From Akkermansia sp. (lineage in GTDB: Bacteria > Verrucomicrobiota > Verrucomicrobiia > Verrucomicrobiales > Akkermansiaceae): 64,000 nt of DNA. This document shows, piece by piece, positions 335-53,426 of the stretch. How positions within the stretch are numbered: the stretch's first letter is position 1; each line of letters starts with the position of its first letter. The DNA is taken from NCBI GenBank assembly GCA_017399165.1, contig JAFQEF010000108.1, positions 1 through 64,000 on the forward strand. Reading direction: 5' to 3'. The notes beneath the pieces are model-generated. The model was not told the DNA's origin, ran no database searches, and saw only the letters and a list, made by a program, of their open reading frames with translations. Both the position numbers and the translations under genes were made by a program.

Positions 335-2986
335 ATGGAACTGAAAAAATATCAACAGAAAACGCTTGCGATACTCAAGGAGTATCTGAATGAAGCCCGC
401 ATTCTTGGAGCCAAGGAAGCTTACGAAAAAGTAACGGAGCCGTTCGATATCAGAACCCGCTTGGGAGCTCTCCGTGGTTATAAGGAACTGAGCGACCTCC
501 CCAATACGCCGCGAGTCTGCCTCAAGGTACCCACGGGCGGCGGTAAGACAATACTGGGGGCCTATTCTCTCCGCATCATAGCAGACTCCTGGAGTGATTG
601 CGAAAATCCGGTAGTGCTCTGGTTCTGCCCGAGCGATACCATCCGCAAGCAAACCGCCGAAGCTCTCAAAAATTCGCGCCACGCCTACCGAAAAGTGATA
701 GATGAACAGTTCGGTGGCCGGGTACGCGTTTTTGACCTAGATGAGAAGTTCGATATTCGCCCGGCAGATCTGTCTCAAAATCTCTGCATCATTGTGAGCA
801 CCATGCAGAGCTTCCGGCAAAGCAATACGGACAAGTACAACGTATACAAGCACAACGAAAATCTGGAGCCGCATTTCAGCACCATCCGCAAGGAGAATGG
901 GATGGAACTGCACGAAGATGGGACGCTCAAATTCTCATTTGCGAACCTGCTGCGCCACTATCGCCCCGTCATTATCGTGGACGAGGCTCACAAGGCGGTG
1001 ACAGACCTCTCGAAAGAGATGCACTCGCGCCTCAATCCCAGCATCATTCTGGAGCTCACGGCCACACCGTACACCAAGAACAATACGCTGTACAACGTGA
1101 CCGCGCTTGAATTGAAAGACGAGGAAATGATTAAGATTCCTATCGTGCTGGATGCGTGCGGCGACTGGGAGAAAGCCATTCAACTGACCATACATCAGCA
1201 GAAATTCCTCGAAGTACAGGCAGAGCGAGAGCGGGAATACTTGCGTCCCATTGCGCTGATTCAGGCTCAAAGCAAGCAGAAGGGAGTCGAAACCCGGCTT
1301 ATCCCCGAGCTGATACGAGAGCACCTGATGACTGTGCACAACATTCCGGAAGGGCAGATAGCTATCGTTACCGGTGAGCAAAAAGAGTTGGATAATATCG
1401 ACCTGTTCCAGCCTTCTTGCCAGATTCGCTTTGTCATTACCATTGAAGCCCTCAAGGAGGGGTGGGATTGTCCCTTTGCATACATTCTTTGTTCCGTTTC
1501 CAACATTAAGAGTAATACTGCTATCCAGCAGCTTCTCGGTCGCGTAATGCGTATGCCTTACGCCCGCAAGCGAACACTCTCCAAGCTGAACAAGTCCTAT
1601 GCTTTCGTCATGTCTCCGTCCTTCAGTGAAGCCGCGCAAGACATCATATCTTGTCTCAATGAAAACGGCTTTGACGAACAAGTGGCCGCAGACTGCGTGG
1701 AACAGGTGGCCCGGGAAGACTTGCTCAAGGAACTTGGCTACTATAGCTCCGGAATATCCCTTACTCTGGCAGAGGCCGAACAGGTGGAGGAGACGGAACA
1801 TGTCAAATTGGAGGATGACGGCAAGGGCGGCAAGACTATCTTCCTGACCATAGAAGCCACAGAATCTGAGGTCAACAAGGTGGCAGAGCGTTTACCGGAG
1901 CAAAAGCGAAAACAAGCCAAGGAGGTAGCGGACACGCTCCGCAGGAATCGCGAGGCCTACATCCAAAACTTGAAACCGGCTCCGAAAAGCCCGGCGGAAT
2001 TAGGCGAGAAGCTGATAGTGCCTCGCCTGATGACTGAGCTGCAGGGAGAACTTGTCCCGGCTGAACTGGACTACATGGTAGAAGTGTTCCCGTGGGATAT
2101 CAACGACTTTGCAGAAGTAGACATCCCCCCGCAAAGCATTGCACCGGATTCCAACGGTACTGTGGTTGAGATTGATATCGTGGGCGACCCCATCAACCGC
2201 CAAAAACTCGTTTATTCCAACAATCAGGACCAGCAGATGATACTGAATCTGGAAAGCGTGCAGCCGGAAGGATGGACAGAGGCAACTCTGGTCAACTGGC
2301 TGGATAGAAAGGTGCGCCAGAACGACATCAATCAAGCTCAGATGCTCAAATGGTTGTCGGCGGTCGTGCATAGGTTGGTAGTCAACTACGGGCTGAGTAT
2401 TGCAAGACTCATGATGGCGAAGTATTCCCTCGCCAATCGCCTGAACTTCGAAATCAGCCGGGCGCGTCAGAAGATGAAGAAGACGGCGTACCAGCTGAGC
2501 CTTTTCGGACAGACCTCCAGAGTAGAAGTCGATTTTGAACAGGGATTCGAGTTCCACGAAGGCATGTATGATGACGATTTGGCATATAATGGCTCCTTTG
2601 TATTCAAAAAGCACTTCCTGCCTAAAGTGCCACGCTTTGATGGTACCGAAGACGGCGAAGAATTTGAGTGCGCCAAGATGCTGGACTCCTTACCGGAGGT
2701 ACAGTATTGGATTCGTAACAAAGCGGGGCATCCGTCATCGTTCCACCTGCCAACAGCGACCGACCGATTCTATCCTGACTTTATCGCGAAGCTCACGGAT
2801 GGGCGAATCCTTGTCGTGGAGTACAAGGGCGAGCATCTTATCACGAACGCAGACACGGCAGAAAAGAACACCATCGGGCAGCTGTGGGAGTACCATAGCA
2901 AGGGGGCCGGGCTCTTCATGATTGCCAGCGGAGCAAGGAGGCAAGCTCAGTTCAAGCAGATGTTCATGGAGAAAATCACCCGCTAA
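335..2986 (+). CDS. res: Type III restriction enzyme Res subunit (helicase plus nuclease)
   Basis: The 883-residue protein is a superfamily 2 ATPase fused to a nuclease. Walker A (VPTGGGKT) is at residues 65-72, the DEAH box at 216-219, and the helicase arginine motif (QLLGRVMRMP) near 400. At the C-terminus a PD-(D/E)XK pattern is visible: YPDF near 812 and VEYKG near 829. This is the normal order for Res, which translocates on DNA with Mod and cuts when two unmodified sites meet. The start ATG follows the Mod stop by one base, so translational coupling is likely. The length fits the family, there is no sign of decay, and this defence locus directly abuts the left end of prophage A. Confidence 0.9.
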   Translation: MELKKYQQKTLAILKEYLNEARILGAKEAYEKVTEPFDIRTRLGALRGYKELSDLPNTPRVCLKVPTGGGKTILGAYSLRIIADSWSDCENPVVLWFCPSDTIRKQTAEALKNSRHAYRKVIDEQFGGRVRVFDLDEKFDIRPADLSQNLCIIVSTMQSFRQSNTDKYNVYKHNENLEPHFSTIRKENGMELHEDGTLKFSFANLLRHYRPVIIVDEAHKAVTDLSKEMHSRLNPSIILELTATPYTKNNTLYNVTALELKDEEMIKIPIVLDACGDWEKAIQLTIHQQKFLEVQAEREREYLRPIALIQAQSKQKGVETRLIPELIREHLMTVHNIPEGQIAIVTGEQKELDNIDLFQPSCQIRFVITIEALKEGWDCPFAYILCSVSNIKSNTAIQQLLGRVMRMPYARKRTLSKLNKSYAFVMSPSFSEAAQDIISCLNENGFDEQVAADCVEQVAREDLLKELGYYSSGISLTLAEAEQVEETEHVKLEDDGKGGKTIFLTIEATESEVNKVAERLPEQKRKQAKEVADTLRRNREAYIQNLKPAPKSPAELGEKLIVPRLMTELQGELVPAELDYMVEVFPWDINDFAEVDIPPQSIAPDSNGTVVEIDIVGDPINRQKLVYSNNQDQQMILNLESVQPEGWTEATLVNWLDRKVRQNDINQAQMLKWLSAVVHRLVVNYGLSIARLMMAKYSLANRLNFEISRARQKMKKTAYQLSLFGQTSRVEVDFEQGFEFHEGMYDDDLAYNGSFVFKKHFLPKVPRFDGTEDGEEFECAKMLDSLPEVQYWIRNKAGHPSSFHLPTATDRFYPDFIAKLTDGRILVVEYKGEHLITNADTAEKNTIGQLWEYHSKGAGLFMIASGARRQAQFKQMFMEKITR

Positions 2987-29365: not shown

Positions 29366-30256
29366 ATGGGAATCATCAAAAAATGTTTTCAGCATTTGTT
29401 CAGAGCGGTATTGTGCTTACTCTTGGCTAACAGTATTCACGCAGCGGACTTACGTCATGGAATGGCTGTATCGATAAATGGACACCCTGTGGCGTCTTTT
29501 GATAGTCACACGGATGAGCTGTTTCCTCTGATGAGTGTTGTAAAATTTCCCTTGTCTATTGTAGTTCTTCATCGAGTAGATAAAGGTGAACTATCGCTGG
29601 ATATGGAATATCATCTGGATGCTCATGACTTGGATCCCCACACATGGAGTCCCATGCAAAAACGCTACCCCAATGGGGGCGTATTCTCCTTGGCTGAGTT
29701 ATTGCGATTATGCCTGTGCGAGAGTGATAATAACGCTTGCAACTACCTTTTTACTCTGGTTGGAGGGCCGGAGTCGGTACAACAATTTTTTGTTAAGCGA
29801 TATGGAACCGACTTTGCTTTTCGCGTAGCATGTACCGAGGCTGATATGAAGAAAATTGAAGCTAAGTCTGTTAATCAGGCATCTCCATCAGCGGTGAGAC
29901 AAATCCTTGAAGATGTATATGTTGCTGCAACGTTGCCCCCGAAAAATCCTATACTTTCGCAGCCACAAGCAATTTTTCTTATCAAAACGATGAATCAATG
30001 TTCAACAGGTCAAAATCGACTTAAAGCCGGATTTTCGGAGACTTCTGTTGCTTTTGCTCACAAAACGGGTTCTTCGGGCATAATTAATGGTAGAACGCTT
30101 GCTCATAACGATATCGGGATCATCCAGATGTCGGGAGGAAACTACGCGTGTATCGTATCCTTTATTTCTGATAGCGGCCTCAATGAAGCCCAGATGAACG
30201 AATGTCATTCAAAACTCGGGAGCCATGTCTATAATGCACTTATAGCTTCGCCTTGA
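29366..30256 (+). CDS. bla: Class A beta-lactamase
   Basis: 296 residues with a Sec signal peptide (KKCFQHLFRAVLCLLLANS, cut near residue 27). Active-site motifs are in order: SVVK with the catalytic serine near 57, SDN in CESDNNACN near 120, a glutamate in the omega loop (TEADM), and HKTGSSG near 231. The spacing is that of the PER/CfxA-like subclass. It hydrolyses beta-lactams in the periplasm. The gene sits on the chromosome strip between the two prophages, eleven to twelve bases behind its own -10 box. The substrate range cannot be read from sequence by eye. Confidence 0.88.
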   Translation: MGIIKKCFQHLFRAVLCLLLANSIHAADLRHGMAVSINGHPVASFDSHTDELFPLMSVVKFPLSIVVLHRVDKGELSLDMEYHLDAHDLDPHTWSPMQKRYPNGGVFSLAELLRLCLCESDNNACNYLFTLVGGPESVQQFFVKRYGTDFAFRVACTEADMKKIEAKSVNQASPSAVRQILEDVYVAATLPPKNPILSQPQAIFLIKTMNQCSTGQNRLKAGFSETSVAFAHKTGSSGIINGRTLAHNDIGIIQMSGGNYACIVSFISDSGLNEAQMNECHSKLGSHVYNALIASP

Positions 30257-43193: not shown

Positions 43194-43276
43194 CAACGCA
43201 AAAAAAACCGGGGCGCCCACAATAGGCACCCCGGCAAGTTTTTCTAAATGAAAGAAGCGGGACCCCTCCCGCGGAT
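43194..43276 (-). ncRNA. Putative antisense-like RNA A of locus 2
   Basis: Promoter TTGACA (43306-43311 complement), 17 bp, TTAAAT. Hairpin GCGGGA-GGGG-TCCCGC (43257-43272) and a strong terminator. Its middle pairs with only seven bases (AAATGAA) of the local peptide start region, so its main target may be another gene. Confidence 0.65.
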
Positions 43277-43321
43277 GCCCTTATTTAATCACTGTCGCCT
43301 TTCCATGTCAATCCTTTTTTT

Positions 43322-43394
43322 AAAAAAGATTCGCCCCGCGCACCGGAGCACGCGGGGCAAAAAGTAATACAAATGCGGGACCCCTCCCGCGGAT
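43322..43394 (-). ncRNA. Putative antisense RNA B of locus 2
   Basis: Promoter TTGACA (43424-43429 complement), 17 bp, TTTAAT. It shares the GCGGGA-GGGG-TCCCGC hairpin (43375-43390). Bases 43363-43375 are an exact 13-nt antisense match to 43598-43610, which covers the start codon of the peptide gene. A terminator with a GCCCCGCG stem closes it. Confidence 0.75.
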
Positions 43395-43455
43395 GCCCGT
43401 ATTAAAACACTTTTGCCCGTACTTGTCAACGTTTTTTTATTAAAAAGATTCAGCT

Positions 43456-43493
43456 TCAAAGATTCGCCCCGCTCCGGCGAACCGGAACGGGGC
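43456..43493 (-). terminator. Terminator of the peptide mRNA, locus 2
   Basis: GCCCCGCTCCGG and CCGGAACGGGGC pair with one mismatch; T residues follow on the minus strand. Confidence 0.85.
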
Positions 43494-43498
43494 TTTGC

Positions 43499-43600
43499 TT
43501 AACACAGCATCCTGACCAGATAATATATGATTTTCACCATTTTCTCCACTATCGCAAGGATAGCTGCCAGTTGCTTGTGTTTTGGGTTGGGGGTATTCAT
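43499..43600 (-). CDS. Hydrophobic 33-residue peptide, putative type I toxin
   Basis: Starts MNTPNPKHKQLAAILAIVEK, with a membrane-like second half ending YYLVRMLC. It resembles the peptide at 50771 (VVTVLAIVWYVLDILVK) in length, charge pattern and in the mRNA leader hairpin. It has its own promoter and terminator and lies in the convergent gap between early and late blocks. Toxicity inferred. Confidence 0.65.
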   Translation of the reverse strand: MNTPNPKHKQLAAILAIVEKMVKIIYYLVRMLC

Positions 43601-43632
43601 TTGTATTACTACCGCACCCTCACGGCGGGATT

Positions 43633-43647
43633 GCCGCTCGGGGCGGC
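43633..43647 (-). promoter_or_regulatory. Leader hairpin of the peptide mRNA, locus 2
   Basis: GCCGC-CCCGA-GCGGC, identical to 50726-50740. Its C-rich loop could kiss the GGGG loop of the small RNAs. Confidence 0.6.
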
Positions 43648-43653
43648 GCGCGC

Positions 43654-43682
43654 ATTATAGCGCGTTGACTATCAAAAGTCAA
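43654..43682 (-). promoter_or_regulatory. Promoter and operator of the peptide gene, locus 2
   Basis: TTGACT, 17 bp, TATAAT. TTGACT and AGTCAA (43665-43682) form a palindrome over the -35 box. Confidence 0.75.
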
Positions 43683-43689
43683 CAACTTT

Positions 43690-43721
43690 TTTTATTTTTT
43701 TTTACGCGGACTAAAGTCCGC
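43690..43721 (-). terminator. Terminator at the end of the tail operon
   Basis: GCGGAC and GTCCGC pair around four bases and are followed on the minus strand by a long T tract. Confidence 0.8.
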
Positions 43722-49578: not shown

Positions 49579-50112
49579 TTACTCTGTCCACGCGATGATA
49601 CCGCCGGCGATGGCCCGCGCCAGCAGGATAGGGCGGGTGCGGATGATTTCGGCATCCTCCGGGCTGCTCAGGAAACCGCATTCCACCAGCACCGCCGGCG
49701 GGCGGGTCTGATTCAGGATAGCGAGGTCGTGCCGCTGCACCAGCGTGCGGGCTCGCCCCGGCAGGTGCACGGCAAGCCGCTCTGCGATTTCCAGCCCCAA
49801 AGCCTGCCCGGCGGCGCTCTTGTAGATGACATGAGCCCCCCGCGCGGACGGCGTGCCCGCGCAGTCGCAATGCAGCGACACCACGGCATCATACCCGCCC
49901 GCATTCACCGCCGCGATGGCGGCGGCTAAATCCTGCTTGTTGGAGAGCTCCGGGAAATCCACGATATCCGCATGAATATGCGGCGTGGCTTGCAGCATCT
50001 GCTTCACATAGCGTGCCAGCTTTGCCGACACTTCATGCTCCTGCAAGCCGTTACCGCTCGCACCCGTGGTGCGGGCGTGGCCGATGTCGATGGCGATTTT
50101 ATAGTAACGCAT
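49579..50112 (-). CDS. N-acetylmuramoyl-L-alanine amidase (endolysin)
   Basis: 177 residues of the zinc-dependent Amidase_3 type: IAIDIGHARTTGASG (first His), HEVSAKLARYVKQML (Glu), VVSLHCDCAG (second His) and VLVECGFLSSPEDAE (catalytic Glu). It cuts the peptide from glycan in peptidoglycan at lysis. It has no signal peptide and so needs the holin-like protein upstream. No amidase is visible in prophage A. Confidence 0.88.
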   Translation of the reverse strand: MRYYKIAIDIGHARTTGASGNGLQEHEVSAKLARYVKQMLQATPHIHADIVDFPELSNKQDLAAAIAAVNAGGYDAVVSLHCDCAGTPSARGAHVIYKSAAGQALGLEIAERLAVHLPGRARTLVQRHDLAILNQTRPPAVLVECGFLSSPEDAEIIRTRPILLARAIAGGIIAWTE

Positions 50113-50437: not shown

Positions 50438-50677
50438 TTACTTTGTAGATTGACACGGTTTGCCGGTGATGGCGTGGTAGAGCCCATGCGCCGCCTGCAA
50501 CTGCTCCGGCGTCACCCTGCTGCACGAGGGCTGGCAGGTAGCCAGAGCCCCCACCACAGCACCGATGATGATGCCCGCCCCCACCTTCGCCCAGTTCGCG
50601 GGCACACCCAAGCCCGCAAGCCACCCCGCAAGGCGGCCGTGAGCTTCCTGCACTTTCTCTTTCTGCGTCTCGTTCAT
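50438..50677 (-). CDS. Small membrane protein of the lysis cassette
   Basis: 79 residues: amphipathic start, membrane segment (AGIIIGAVVGALATC), Cys-containing turn, and TPEQLQAAHGLYHAITGKPC. Counterpart of 11746-12000 in prophage A. The final QSTK comes from the TCTACAAAGT repeat. Spanin- or holin-like role inferred from neighbours. Confidence 0.7.
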   Translation of the reverse strand: MNETQKEKVQEAHGRLAGWLAGLGVPANWAKVGAGIIIGAVVGALATCQPSCSRVTPEQLQAAHGLYHAITGKPCQSTK

Positions 50678-50691
50678 AGTTGTTTATTGTG

Positions 50692-50719
50692 TTGACATTG
50701 AAAAATTATCTGCTATATT
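50692..50719 (+). promoter_or_regulatory. Promoter of the peptide gene, locus 3
   Basis: TTGACA, 16 bp, TATATT, running against the surrounding late genes. Leader hairpin GCCGC-CCCGA-GCGGC follows at 50726-50740. Confidence 0.75.
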
Positions 50720-50770
50720 CTCCCCGCCGCCCCGAGCGGCAATCCCGCTGTGAGGGCGCGGCTTGTAAAC

Positions 50771-50869
50771 ATGAAAAACAAACCCACCCCCACCCAAGTA
50801 GTGACAGTCCTCGCGATTGTCTGGTATGTGCTCGACATCCTGGTGAAGACCGTCCAGCTGCTGCGGTGA
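50771..50869 (+). CDS. Hydrophobic 32-residue peptide, putative type I toxin
   Basis: Starts MKNKPTPTQVVTVLAIVWYV and ends KTVQLLR: a basic flank on either side of one membrane helix. Paralogue of 43499-43600. Own promoter, leader hairpin and terminator. Its start region (50764-50779) is complementary to the small RNA encoded next to it. Confidence 0.7.
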   Translation: MKNKPTPTQVVTVLAIVWYVLDILVKTVQLLR

Positions 50870-50876
50870 AGACAAG

Positions 50877-50913
50877 CCCCGCCCGCCATGGGCGGGGTGA
50901 ATCTTTTTTTTTT
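50877..50913 (+). terminator. Terminator of the peptide mRNA, locus 3
   Basis: CCCCGCCC and GGGCGGGG around five bases, followed by GAATC and ten or more T residues; the same GAATC joins stem and T run in locus 2. Confidence 0.9.
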
Positions 50914-50959
50914 GAAAAAAAGCGTTGACATGGGGAGGGAAAGGTGTTTTAATGAAGCC

Positions 50960-51036
50960 ATCCGCGGGAGGGGTCCCGCAGTTTTTTATGTTTACATGCA
51001 GCCCGTGTGCATCATGTGCGCGGGCTGCATGTTTTT
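50960..51036 (+). ncRNA. Putative antisense RNA of locus 3
   Basis: Promoter TTGACA 50925, 17 bp, TTTAAT 50948. Hairpin GCGGGA-GGGG-TCCCGC at 50964-50979. Bases 50981-50996 can form 16 consecutive pairs (one G-U) with 50764-50779, across the peptide start codon. A stem of 11 bp (CATGCAGCCCG / CGGGCTGCATG) and T residues end it, and may also serve the converging gene. Confidence 0.8.
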
Positions 51037-51224
51037 CAGCTTGGCAGCGGCTCTCTCTCCTCCTCAGTAATACCGAAATACTCGCAGGCTTCCTCCACGC
51101 TACCGAAAACGCGGTACCCGTTCGCCTCCCAGTTGGTGACATAGTGCCCCCAATCCAGCACGCGCTCAAGCGTACCATCCGGCCGCTCCACCATCTCTAC
51201 TCTGGCATAAATAACTGTGTTCAT
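51036..51224 (-). CDS. Small protein, unknown
   Basis: 62 residues starting MNTVIYARVEMVERPDGTLE, acidic. It sits between the fibre and lysis genes and converges on the small RNA of locus 3, sharing its terminator. A fibre accessory role is possible but unsupported. Confidence 0.6.
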   Translation of the reverse strand: MNTVIYARVEMVERPDGTLERVLDWGHYVTNWEANGYRVFGSVEEACEYFGITEEEREPLPS

Positions 51225-51245: not shown

Positions 51246-53426
51246 TCAGGCTGTTGCCGTGCCGTTCCACTGCACCGTCAGCGTCCAGCCCTTGCCCTCT
51301 GCCGCCGTGATTGCCGCCAGCACCTCCTCGTCCGTCTGGTGGTCTACATGGATGCCAATGGTGAGCTTGTGTGTGTCGCTGGTGTAGGTGGGTATAGTCG
51401 TCAGCACCCGAAGCGCAGAGGCCTTATCCAGCTTGCAGGAGTTGAACATACTAGTCCCGATCGACAGAGACGGCAAATCTGCGGCGAAGCTCGTCAAGGC
51501 GGTGCAAGAGGAAAACATAGAAGTCCCACCAGTCATCAGGGGCAAATAGCTGGAAAAGCTCTGCAAAGAGGCGCACCTTATGAACATGTTTCCACCACTC
51601 TGTAACTCGGGCAAATCGACGGAAAAACTCCTCAGCCCGCAGCGGTCAAACATCTGGAGGCCCGATTGCAACACGGGCAAGGCTCCTGTAAAGCTTTGCA
51701 AGCCGCTGCTTTGGAACATCTGACTCCCACTCGTTAATGCAGGCAAGTCGACGTCAAAACTCCTTAGGGCACTGCATGCACAGAACATTTGCGTTGCTTC
51801 TGTTAATGAGGGTAATTCGCAGGCAAAACTCGCCAAGCCGCTATTGGTAAACATAAATTTTCCATTTTGCAACGATGTTAAATTGGAGGTAAATCTAGCT
51901 AATGCGGTGCACTTGTAGAACATGTACTCCCCGGTTACCAGCGAGGGCATCGGGATATCCCAGCTCGTCAATGTTGATCTTTCATATTGTAAATATCTAC
52001 CACTAGTCAGTGTATCCAGCCTCCCCCCTGTCAGCGTGCTATCCGCAGCTACTGTCACATAATCCCCTTCCGGTTCGCCGCCGCCGGCTCCACTCAACTG
52101 CACAGCGGCGGCCGGCCTAAAAAGCTCGGTAAGCGAGCAAGAGCCGTTCAGGGTGGCTGTGGTGGTGGTGGCCACAAAGCCCAACTGTTTGCCGGCGGCG
52201 CAGGTCAGCTGAGCCTCACCACAAGAGCCGGTTACAGCCCCGGTGGCGGTAATGACGTAGGTATGCCCCACCTGCACAATAGCCTCCCCGTTCAAAATGG
52301 GCACATCGCGCCCGGTGGTGCCATAGGTTTCCAGCAGCTCCGCCAGCCCCGCGTGCTCGTCCGCTGTGATATGCACAGCCATATCCTCCACATGCTCAGC
52401 CGGGGCGAAGACACCCACCAGCATATGCCAGGTGTGCTTTGCCTGCCAGCTGCGCTGGGTGGGGTCAGAGTCCTCGCCATACCCGCCGGCAGCCCCCAGC
52501 AGGCCGCCGGGCGTGTCGGGGTCCTTGGCCACCACGCGCAGGCAGCACTGCCGCCCCATGTAGTAGCCGGTTTCTGCCAGCCCCTCCTCAGCGTGGAAAG
52601 ATACCTTAATTTCCTCGCCCGCTGCCACCTCGAAAGGCGCTGCAAAACTGTAGCTCAGCACGGCAGCTACAGCGTGCTGCTGCGAGTTCTCCGAGCGGGC
52701 TATGAGGGTGGTACCGCGCCATACCTTGAGCCATACGGGGGTATCTGCCGGGGTGGCAGTGTTATTATCGCGGCATTCGAGGGTAAGCCCTTTTATGCGC
52801 CCCGCGCGGGGCATCTCAAAGCCGAAGCCGTAGGCGTTGTAATTATCCTCCGTGGTGCCCTCGGGCGCCACATCCACCGCTGCATAGCCCAGCGGGGCGA
52901 TAAGCTCCGCCTTCTGTTCCTCGGTAAGGTCGTCATAGGTGAGCGGGTCTCCCTTGTCGCCCTTGGGGCCTTGCTCGCCTTGGGGGCCGGCGATGCCCAT
53001 GGTGATGGTGCCGGTGACGACTTCCGCATCTTCCAGCGCGGCATCGGCCGCCACGCGGGCGGCGTCCACCATGCCTGTGGAGGGCTCTGTCTCGCCATAC
53101 CAGGGGTCTACGGTAAGCTCGCCCTGCAGGAGGACGTAGACGCGGCCGGTGGCCAGCTGCGTGGCGCGCAGCTGGTAGCCCCAGGGCTCGCGGCGCGGTT
53201 TGCACACCTTTTGAGGCCCCAGAGCGAGCGGCGGGAGCTGCAGCACGGCGCTGCCGTCTGCAAACTCCACCACGGTGGCGTCCACCTTGTCGCCGGAGCT
53301 GTTTTCCGCGCCGCCCCCCAGCTGCCACTCAGCAGCGGGAAGCGGTGCGCCGGATGCGGAGCGCAGCGCAAGCTCGAATCGCTTGGCCACGCCCTCAAGT
53401 ACGCGTATGTTGAGTTGTTGAGACAT
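51246..53426 (-). CDS. Tail fibre / receptor-binding protein of prophage B
   Basis: 726 residues. A virion-binding N-terminal part, a short collagen-like stretch (GPQGEQGPKGDKGDP near 148), a middle beta domain, and from about 480 nine copies of a unit of the type MF..C.AL.SF...LPSL, like BspA-type leucine-rich repeats. The end (TLTVQWNGTATA) follows an AA-rich helix. The distal unit is shared with the prophage A fibre, which otherwise differs. The repeat region uses less GC-rich codons than its surroundings, a sign of separate origin. Confidence 0.8.
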   Translation of the reverse strand: MSQQLNIRVLEGVAKRFELALRSASGAPLPAAEWQLGGGAENSSGDKVDATVVEFADGSAVLQLPPLALGPQKVCKPRREPWGYQLRATQLATGRVYVLLQGELTVDPWYGETEPSTGMVDAARVAADAALEDAEVVTGTITMGIAGPQGEQGPKGDKGDPLTYDDLTEEQKAELIAPLGYAAVDVAPEGTTEDNYNAYGFGFEMPRAGRIKGLTLECRDNNTATPADTPVWLKVWRGTTLIARSENSQQHAVAAVLSYSFAAPFEVAAGEEIKVSFHAEEGLAETGYYMGRQCCLRVVAKDPDTPGGLLGAAGGYGEDSDPTQRSWQAKHTWHMLVGVFAPAEHVEDMAVHITADEHAGLAELLETYGTTGRDVPILNGEAIVQVGHTYVITATGAVTGSCGEAQLTCAAGKQLGFVATTTTATLNGSCSLTELFRPAAAVQLSGAGGGEPEGDYVTVAADSTLTGGRLDTLTSGRYLQYERSTLTSWDIPMPSLVTGEYMFYKCTALARFTSNLTSLQNGKFMFTNSGLASFACELPSLTEATQMFCACSALRSFDVDLPALTSGSQMFQSSGLQSFTGALPVLQSGLQMFDRCGLRSFSVDLPELQSGGNMFIRCASLQSFSSYLPLMTGGTSMFSSCTALTSFAADLPSLSIGTSMFNSCKLDKASALRVLTTIPTYTSDTHKLTIGIHVDHQTDEEVLAAITAAEGKGWTLTVQWNGTATA

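Follow-up and report, generated by a model that had tools for sequence, protein, structure and literature searches.

We analysed a stretch of 64,000 nucleotides from an Akkermansia sp. genome (contig JAFQEF010000108.1; hereafter the window) and identified at 50692-51037 of its plus strand a compact locus, W1, that encodes a small hydrophobic peptide and a predicted small RNA (sRNA). In order along this strand are a promoter, a 5'-terminal mRNA hairpin, a 32-aa hydrophobic ORF, a terminator, and then a second promoter with a predicted RNA of ~78 nt (Table 1). The two transcription units stand in tandem, with a phage gene of the minus strand on either side (50438-50677 and 51036-51224). This part of the window belongs to a prophage, which has an integrase gene adjoining a tRNA-Ala as well as genes for terminase, portal, head protease and endolysin. 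Also on the minus strand are the endolysin gene (49579-50112; PHROG 435, E 3.7e-37) and a collagen-repeat, fibre-like gene (51246-53426) that has no firm PHROG match. The original prediction described a mRNA for a 32-residue membrane peptide with an RNA unit behind it on the same strand, both running against lysis and fibre genes. We located all of these parts, in that arrangement.

Of the named phages, Akkermansia phage Moulinsart has the closest terminase (identity 45%, E 2e-141; the remaining matches listed are below 28%). Its terminase, portal, protease, tape-measure, fibre and endolysin genes also stand in a similar order, which makes Akkermansia or a near relative the probable host. A short repeat, AATCTACAAAGT, often in tandem steps of 14 nt, occurs at gene junctions of this prophage between 33896 and 50451. 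There are 20 copies versus 0.25 expected, mostly oriented in the local direction of the genes.

Table 1. Features of locus W1, its homolog W2 and the orphan sRNA unit (positions in the window).
Feature	Position	Strand	Evidence or remark
W1 peptide mRNA promoter, TTGACA-16-TATATT	50692-50719	+	11/12 consensus matches
W1 leader hairpin, mRNA 5' end	50726-50762	+	one long stem is best; short GCCGC/GCGGC form is an alternative
W1 sRNA target site over the start codon	50764-50779	+	16-nt ungapped complement
W1 presumed toxin, 32-aa hydrophobic peptide MKNKPTPTQVVTVLAIVWYVLDILVKTVQLLR	ORF 50771-50869	+	peptide HMM match, dN/dS, hydropathy
W1 peptide mRNA terminator	50876-50913	+	
W1 sRNA promoter, TTGACA-17-TTTAAT	50925-50953	+	read from sequence; six units aligned
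W1 predicted sRNA, ~78 nt	50960-51037	+	fold of -44.1 kcal/mol (z -5.9); promoter and terminator used to place the ends
W1 sRNA hairpin GCGGGA-GGGG-TCCCGC, 6 bp, GGGG loop	50964-50979	+	conserved
W1 sRNA antisense recognition segment	50981-50996	+	pairing with 50764-50779; cognate tests
W1 sRNA terminator	50994-51037 (stem 50994-51032)	+	fold
W2 peptide mRNA promoter, TTGACT-17-TATAAT	43654-43682	-	sequence
W2 leader hairpin	43611-43647	-	
W2 peptide, 33 aa, MNTPNPKHKQLAAILAIVEKMVKIIYYLVRMLC	43499-43600	-	peptide HMM E 6e-17; the sequence is itself a query row
W2 sRNA unit: promoter, GGGG hairpin 43375-43390, antisense 43363-43375, terminator	43320-43429	-	
Orphan sRNA unit: promoter, hairpin 43257-43272, antisense 43235-43256, terminator	43201-43311	-	

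One further homologous locus was identified in the same genome. This locus, W2, lies at about 43320-43690 on the minus strand of the same prophage and is 68% identical to W1, which agrees with the description of W1 as the second peptide/antisense-RNA locus. Leader and sRNA hairpin are nearly identical in the two copies, and the peptide has diverged. The recognition segment of W2 is unlike that of W1, yet complementarity is retained (mRNA AGTAATACAAAT, sRNA ATTTGTATTACT), with a Watson-Crick run of 13 nt between the sRNA and its own mRNA. As each pair has its own recognition letters, W1 and W2 should act largely independently.

Behind W2 is an orphan sRNA unit. Its promoter is similar, its hairpin is unchanged, its antisense segment (TTCTTTCATTTAG) is a different one, and no peptide accompanies it. 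A search of the same genome and 76 same-genus genomes found no target with a leader for this sRNA, which may be either the remnant of a lost pair or an antitoxin-only gene. The predicted fold of the W1, W2 and orphan sRNAs consists of the hairpin, an open segment (~14 nt unpaired in W1) and the terminator. The putative sRNA promoter is conserved as a consensus sequence among members of the type found in the window (alignment of six units), and the GGGG-loop hairpin is identical in W1, W2, the orphan and three members from elsewhere (G038, G054 and L019).

The open segment of the W1 sRNA is complementary to the start of the peptide mRNA over 16 nt, gapless and with one G-U pair, and the duplex spans the start codon, exactly as originally predicted. 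This run exceeds chance, as none of 300 dinucleotide shuffles of the region matched it (the longest shuffled run was 14 nt). For a wider comparison, the recognition segments of all sRNAs were combined in turn with the mRNA start regions of all 19 peptide/sRNA pairs. Duplex energy averaged -20.6 kcal/mol for cognate versus -11.4 kcal/mol for non-cognate combinations, and the Watson-Crick run averaged 10.5 versus 5.4 nt; in both cases 0 of 100,000 label permutations were as good, although the permutations treat pairs as independent and some members are close relatives. Because some hairpins were first recognized by eye, we also ran a scan of ~600 nt of flank that ignored the hairpin. Cognate combinations again stood out (10.84 versus 7.52 nt; 0 of 100,000 permutations), and the opposite-strand control showed no excess (7.21 versus 7.20 nt). 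The best site starts within 3 nt of the hairpin end in 17 of the 19 loci, and the whole AUG lies inside 16 of these 17 runs. The two exceptions are W1, where the G-U pair interrupts the Watson-Crick run, and G015c, where the run is only 8 nt. A few sRNAs (G054, G039, W2 and G017c) pair better with a non-cognate mRNA of another genome.

Functionless complementarity, arising by chance as an inverted repeat or left behind when a DNA element was duplicated, could be suspected from the A/T-rich start region and from the 68% identity of W1 and W2, due to which some of their similarity is inherited. We consider this explanation extremely improbable, given the outcome of the shuffles and permutations and the fact that the letters differ between pairs while complementarity persists. 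Such a change of letters on both sides with the pairing kept is the in silico counterpart of a compensatory-mutation experiment. The central idea of the original prediction, a peptide mRNA with a separate antisense RNA over its start codon, is strongly supported by this joint change and by purifying selection on the peptide in close pairs.

The leader of W1 is ~45 nt long and can be folded in two ways. The long hairpin (-25.6 kcal/mol) is more stable than the short GCCGC-CCCGA-GCGGC hairpin (-17.4 kcal/mol) that had first been proposed. All 20 leaders tested have the long form as their minimum-energy fold. In the alignment of these 20 members, 91% of cells are paired, and the covariation score was reached by 3 of 500 shuffles (i.e., it lies above the other 497). 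The short hairpin is the less stable alternative in every member and could exist transiently during transcription.

A further proposed mechanism is a kissing contact between the sRNA's GGGG loop and the C-rich leader loop, which would precede the start-codon duplex. Six members (W1, W2, G038, L019, G054 and G039) combine an sRNA GGGG with a leader CCC, and the short leader hairpin would be the first to form as the mRNA is transcribed. However, CCC is paired to the leader's own GGG arm in the best fold, and leader loops of other members are UUCG, ACU or CUGAU. Cognate loop pairing hardly exceeds the permutations (3.00 versus 2.75 nt; 924 of 20,000 permutations equally good). Such a kiss could occur, and these numbers argue for it weakly; we regard it as unlikely.

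To define the family, a peptide HMM built on five members was searched against 76 same-genus genomes. We identified 24 loci in 14 of the 76 genomes (G065 not counted), and one extra member in an IMG/VR viral contig (L019). Every intact member combines the leader hairpin and a terminator with a 31-33-residue peptide, for which LLR or LLC is the usual C-terminus. A same-strand sRNA unit adjoins 22 of the 24 genomic loci and the L019 member, with a hairpin loop that is nearly always G-rich. The two loci without this unit are G029, which is cut by a contig end, and G043c, in which the leader is missing. The sRNA is downstream of the peptide gene in the six members with GGGG and CCC named above and upstream in the remaining loci, with its hairpin 149-181 nt ahead of the AUG. 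Loci of the downstream type are mostly in phage regions, with the exception of G054. The two upstream-type regions that we inspected closely are both chromosomal: G015, near the gene for ribosomal protein S11, and G017, a tandem array. Three members are arranged in tandem in this array (L193/L261, C118:15760-16684), with a separate upstream sRNA and distinct recognition letters for each peptide. In one G017 locus, G017d, the peptide ORF is out of frame due to a frameshift, and the sRNA is intact. The G054 member is located directly beside a chromosomal HipB/HipA toxin-antitoxin pair (L259 4704-6930).

Searches beyond the genus and in phages returned little. An order-wide peptide search of 387 genomes with a wider alignment found no convincing member outside the genus. 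Matches to a loose hairpin pattern in the genome collection were, where examined, not members, and one contig titled as Akkermansia (L072) was without the locus. In the viral contigs, this pattern had L019 as its sole real match (most others being chance matches), the leader pattern gave nothing real, and no upstream-type hairpin was identified. Phage records searched with the DNA and with the peptide yielded no member. The sRNA model (R1) is confident for downstream-type units only. No above-cut-off family for the peptide or the RNA was found in Pfam, NCBIfam, PHROGs, PADLOC or Rfam; sub-threshold matches included DUF7554 (17.4 of 25 bits) and, weakly, PHROGs with one holin among them (E 0.056).

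Close pairs of members indicate purifying selection on the core of the peptide. G033, G026b and G036 have 5-8 synonymous and zero non-synonymous differences. The dN/dS of W1 against G038, G015a and G017a is 0.20, 0.14 and 0.12, respectively; more distant pairs are close to saturation and little informative. Hydropathy in the best 19-residue window is 1.9-2.8, and net charge is +1 to +5.

Judging by these sequence comparisons, W1 probably belongs to an undescribed family of type I-like toxin-antitoxin pairs in which the antitoxin sRNA is encoded on the same strand as the toxin. The suggestion of an undescribed RNA-controlled toxin family comes from relatives that keep the fit to the start codon while its letters change. 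From the first promoter, a short mRNA with a strong 5' hairpin would be made, and its product, a positively charged single-helix membrane peptide of ~32 aa, would harm the membrane when over-produced. The second promoter would give the sRNA, in which the GGGG-loop hairpin and the terminator are predicted to leave ~14 nt free to pair with its own mRNA over the start codon and the codons next to it. The duplex would keep the ribosome off, and its cleavage may follow. If the supply of sRNA fell, the peptide would be made and would act on the membrane. The pair carried by the prophage is probably cargo that would serve lysogen stability, exclusion or abortive infection.

Two features expected of a type I system are present: a putative antitoxin RNA complementary to the presumed toxin mRNA, as seen in the cognate excess of the 19 pairs, and a hydrophobic protein below 60 aa, here of 31-33 aa. 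The opposite-strand antitoxin is absent, as every pair has its sRNA on the strand of the peptide gene, either downstream or upstream of it. Because the logic is that of type I and this feature is lacking, and the toxicity of the peptide is presumed, we class the family as a variant of type I.

The same sequence evidence, with a conserved peptide of presumed toxicity, would also fit a small membrane protein that is tuned by a neighbouring sRNA and is not a toxin, such as a regulatory or stress peptide or one for phage exclusion or lysis timing. W1 is beside lysis genes, and one of the weak sub-threshold matches is the holin named above. However, chromosomal members are far from phage genes. The sRNA units whose peptide is dead or missing are better explained by tight silencing of a harmful product; loss of the peptide with the sRNA kept, as in G017d and in the peptide-less unit in the window, is how a toxin locus would be expected to decay. 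The presence of several differently addressed pairs per genome and occlusion of the start codon also favour a harmful product. A non-toxic function is therefore improbable, and a toxin remains our preferred reading.

A broader scheme, which we consider rather doubtful and offer as speculation, is that recognition in the family is modular. One sRNA scaffold (GGGG-loop hairpin and terminator) and a conserved leader and peptide would be linked by a short start-codon sequence that diversifies into mutually specific pairs, with different gene orders in prophage and chromosome. The orphan at 43201-43311 would then be an antitoxin-only gene, acting against a toxin encoded by other hosts or rival prophages.

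Several known systems resemble the family in part. TisB/IstR-1, ShoB/OhsC, ZorO/OrzO and DinQ/AgrB of E. coli likewise combine a small hydrophobic peptide with a separate neighbouring sRNA; this sRNA has its own promoter in E. coli and a predicted one in the Akkermansia loci. We found no sequence similarity to any of the four. Pairing at such unconventional type I loci is short (18-21 nt) and overlap limited, and zor/orz also shows tandem loci with target-specific sRNAs as well as orphan antitoxins (PMC3919570, PMC11264685). However, the sRNA at the unconventional E. coli loci is divergent and pairs inside a long 5' UTR, well ahead of the start codon (PMC4147584, PMC3919570), whereas the Akkermansia loci have same-strand tandem units, a ~45-nt leader and pairing over the AUG, and thus lack the feature of the divergent class. 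In Ibs/Sib and SymE/SymR, an RNA also lies over the start codon of the mRNA (PMC4147584). These antitoxins are opposite to and overlap the toxin gene, whereas the Akkermansia RNA does not overlap and pairs over 8-16 nt only. TimP/TimR is a further small toxic inner-membrane protein with an sRNA antitoxin and mutually exclusive mRNA folds (PMC11228461); its translation needs an upstream pseudoknot, whereas the alternative leader folds of the Akkermansia family are predictions only. MsoT1/MsoA1 of Microcystis is likewise a case of type I features in a non-classical phylum (PMC12390103), but that phylum is not the one studied here, the gene arrangement is another, and the method by which it was found requires overlapping cis-encoded antitoxins.

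A 2025 paper reports that, before this one cyanobacterial case, type I systems had been described only in Proteobacteria, Firmicutes and Tenericutes; it blames this limit on searches that use sequence features of known loci, and it words the type I antitoxin as encoded on the opposite strand (PMC12390103). We found none described for Akkermansia or Verrucomicrobia in open-licence papers. The family reported here, in genomes apparently of Akkermansia, departs from the usual type I gene arrangement. Thus, a search for same-strand RNAs complementary to the start codon near tiny hydrophobic ORFs, combined with the cognate versus non-cognate test, is suggested. The natural sRNA/mRNA pairs (about 19) are also material for study of the evolution of antisense specificity.

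Other genes in the window include one at 29366-30256 (plus strand), between the two prophage regions, for a beta-lactamase-family protein that has SxxK, SDN and KTG-like motifs and matches Pfam Beta-lactamase2 (E 3e-28). A helicase encoded at 335-2986 (plus strand) resembles the res subunit of type III restriction systems (Pfam ResIII, E 8e-17), and its closest plasmid relative adjoins a DNA methyltransferase.
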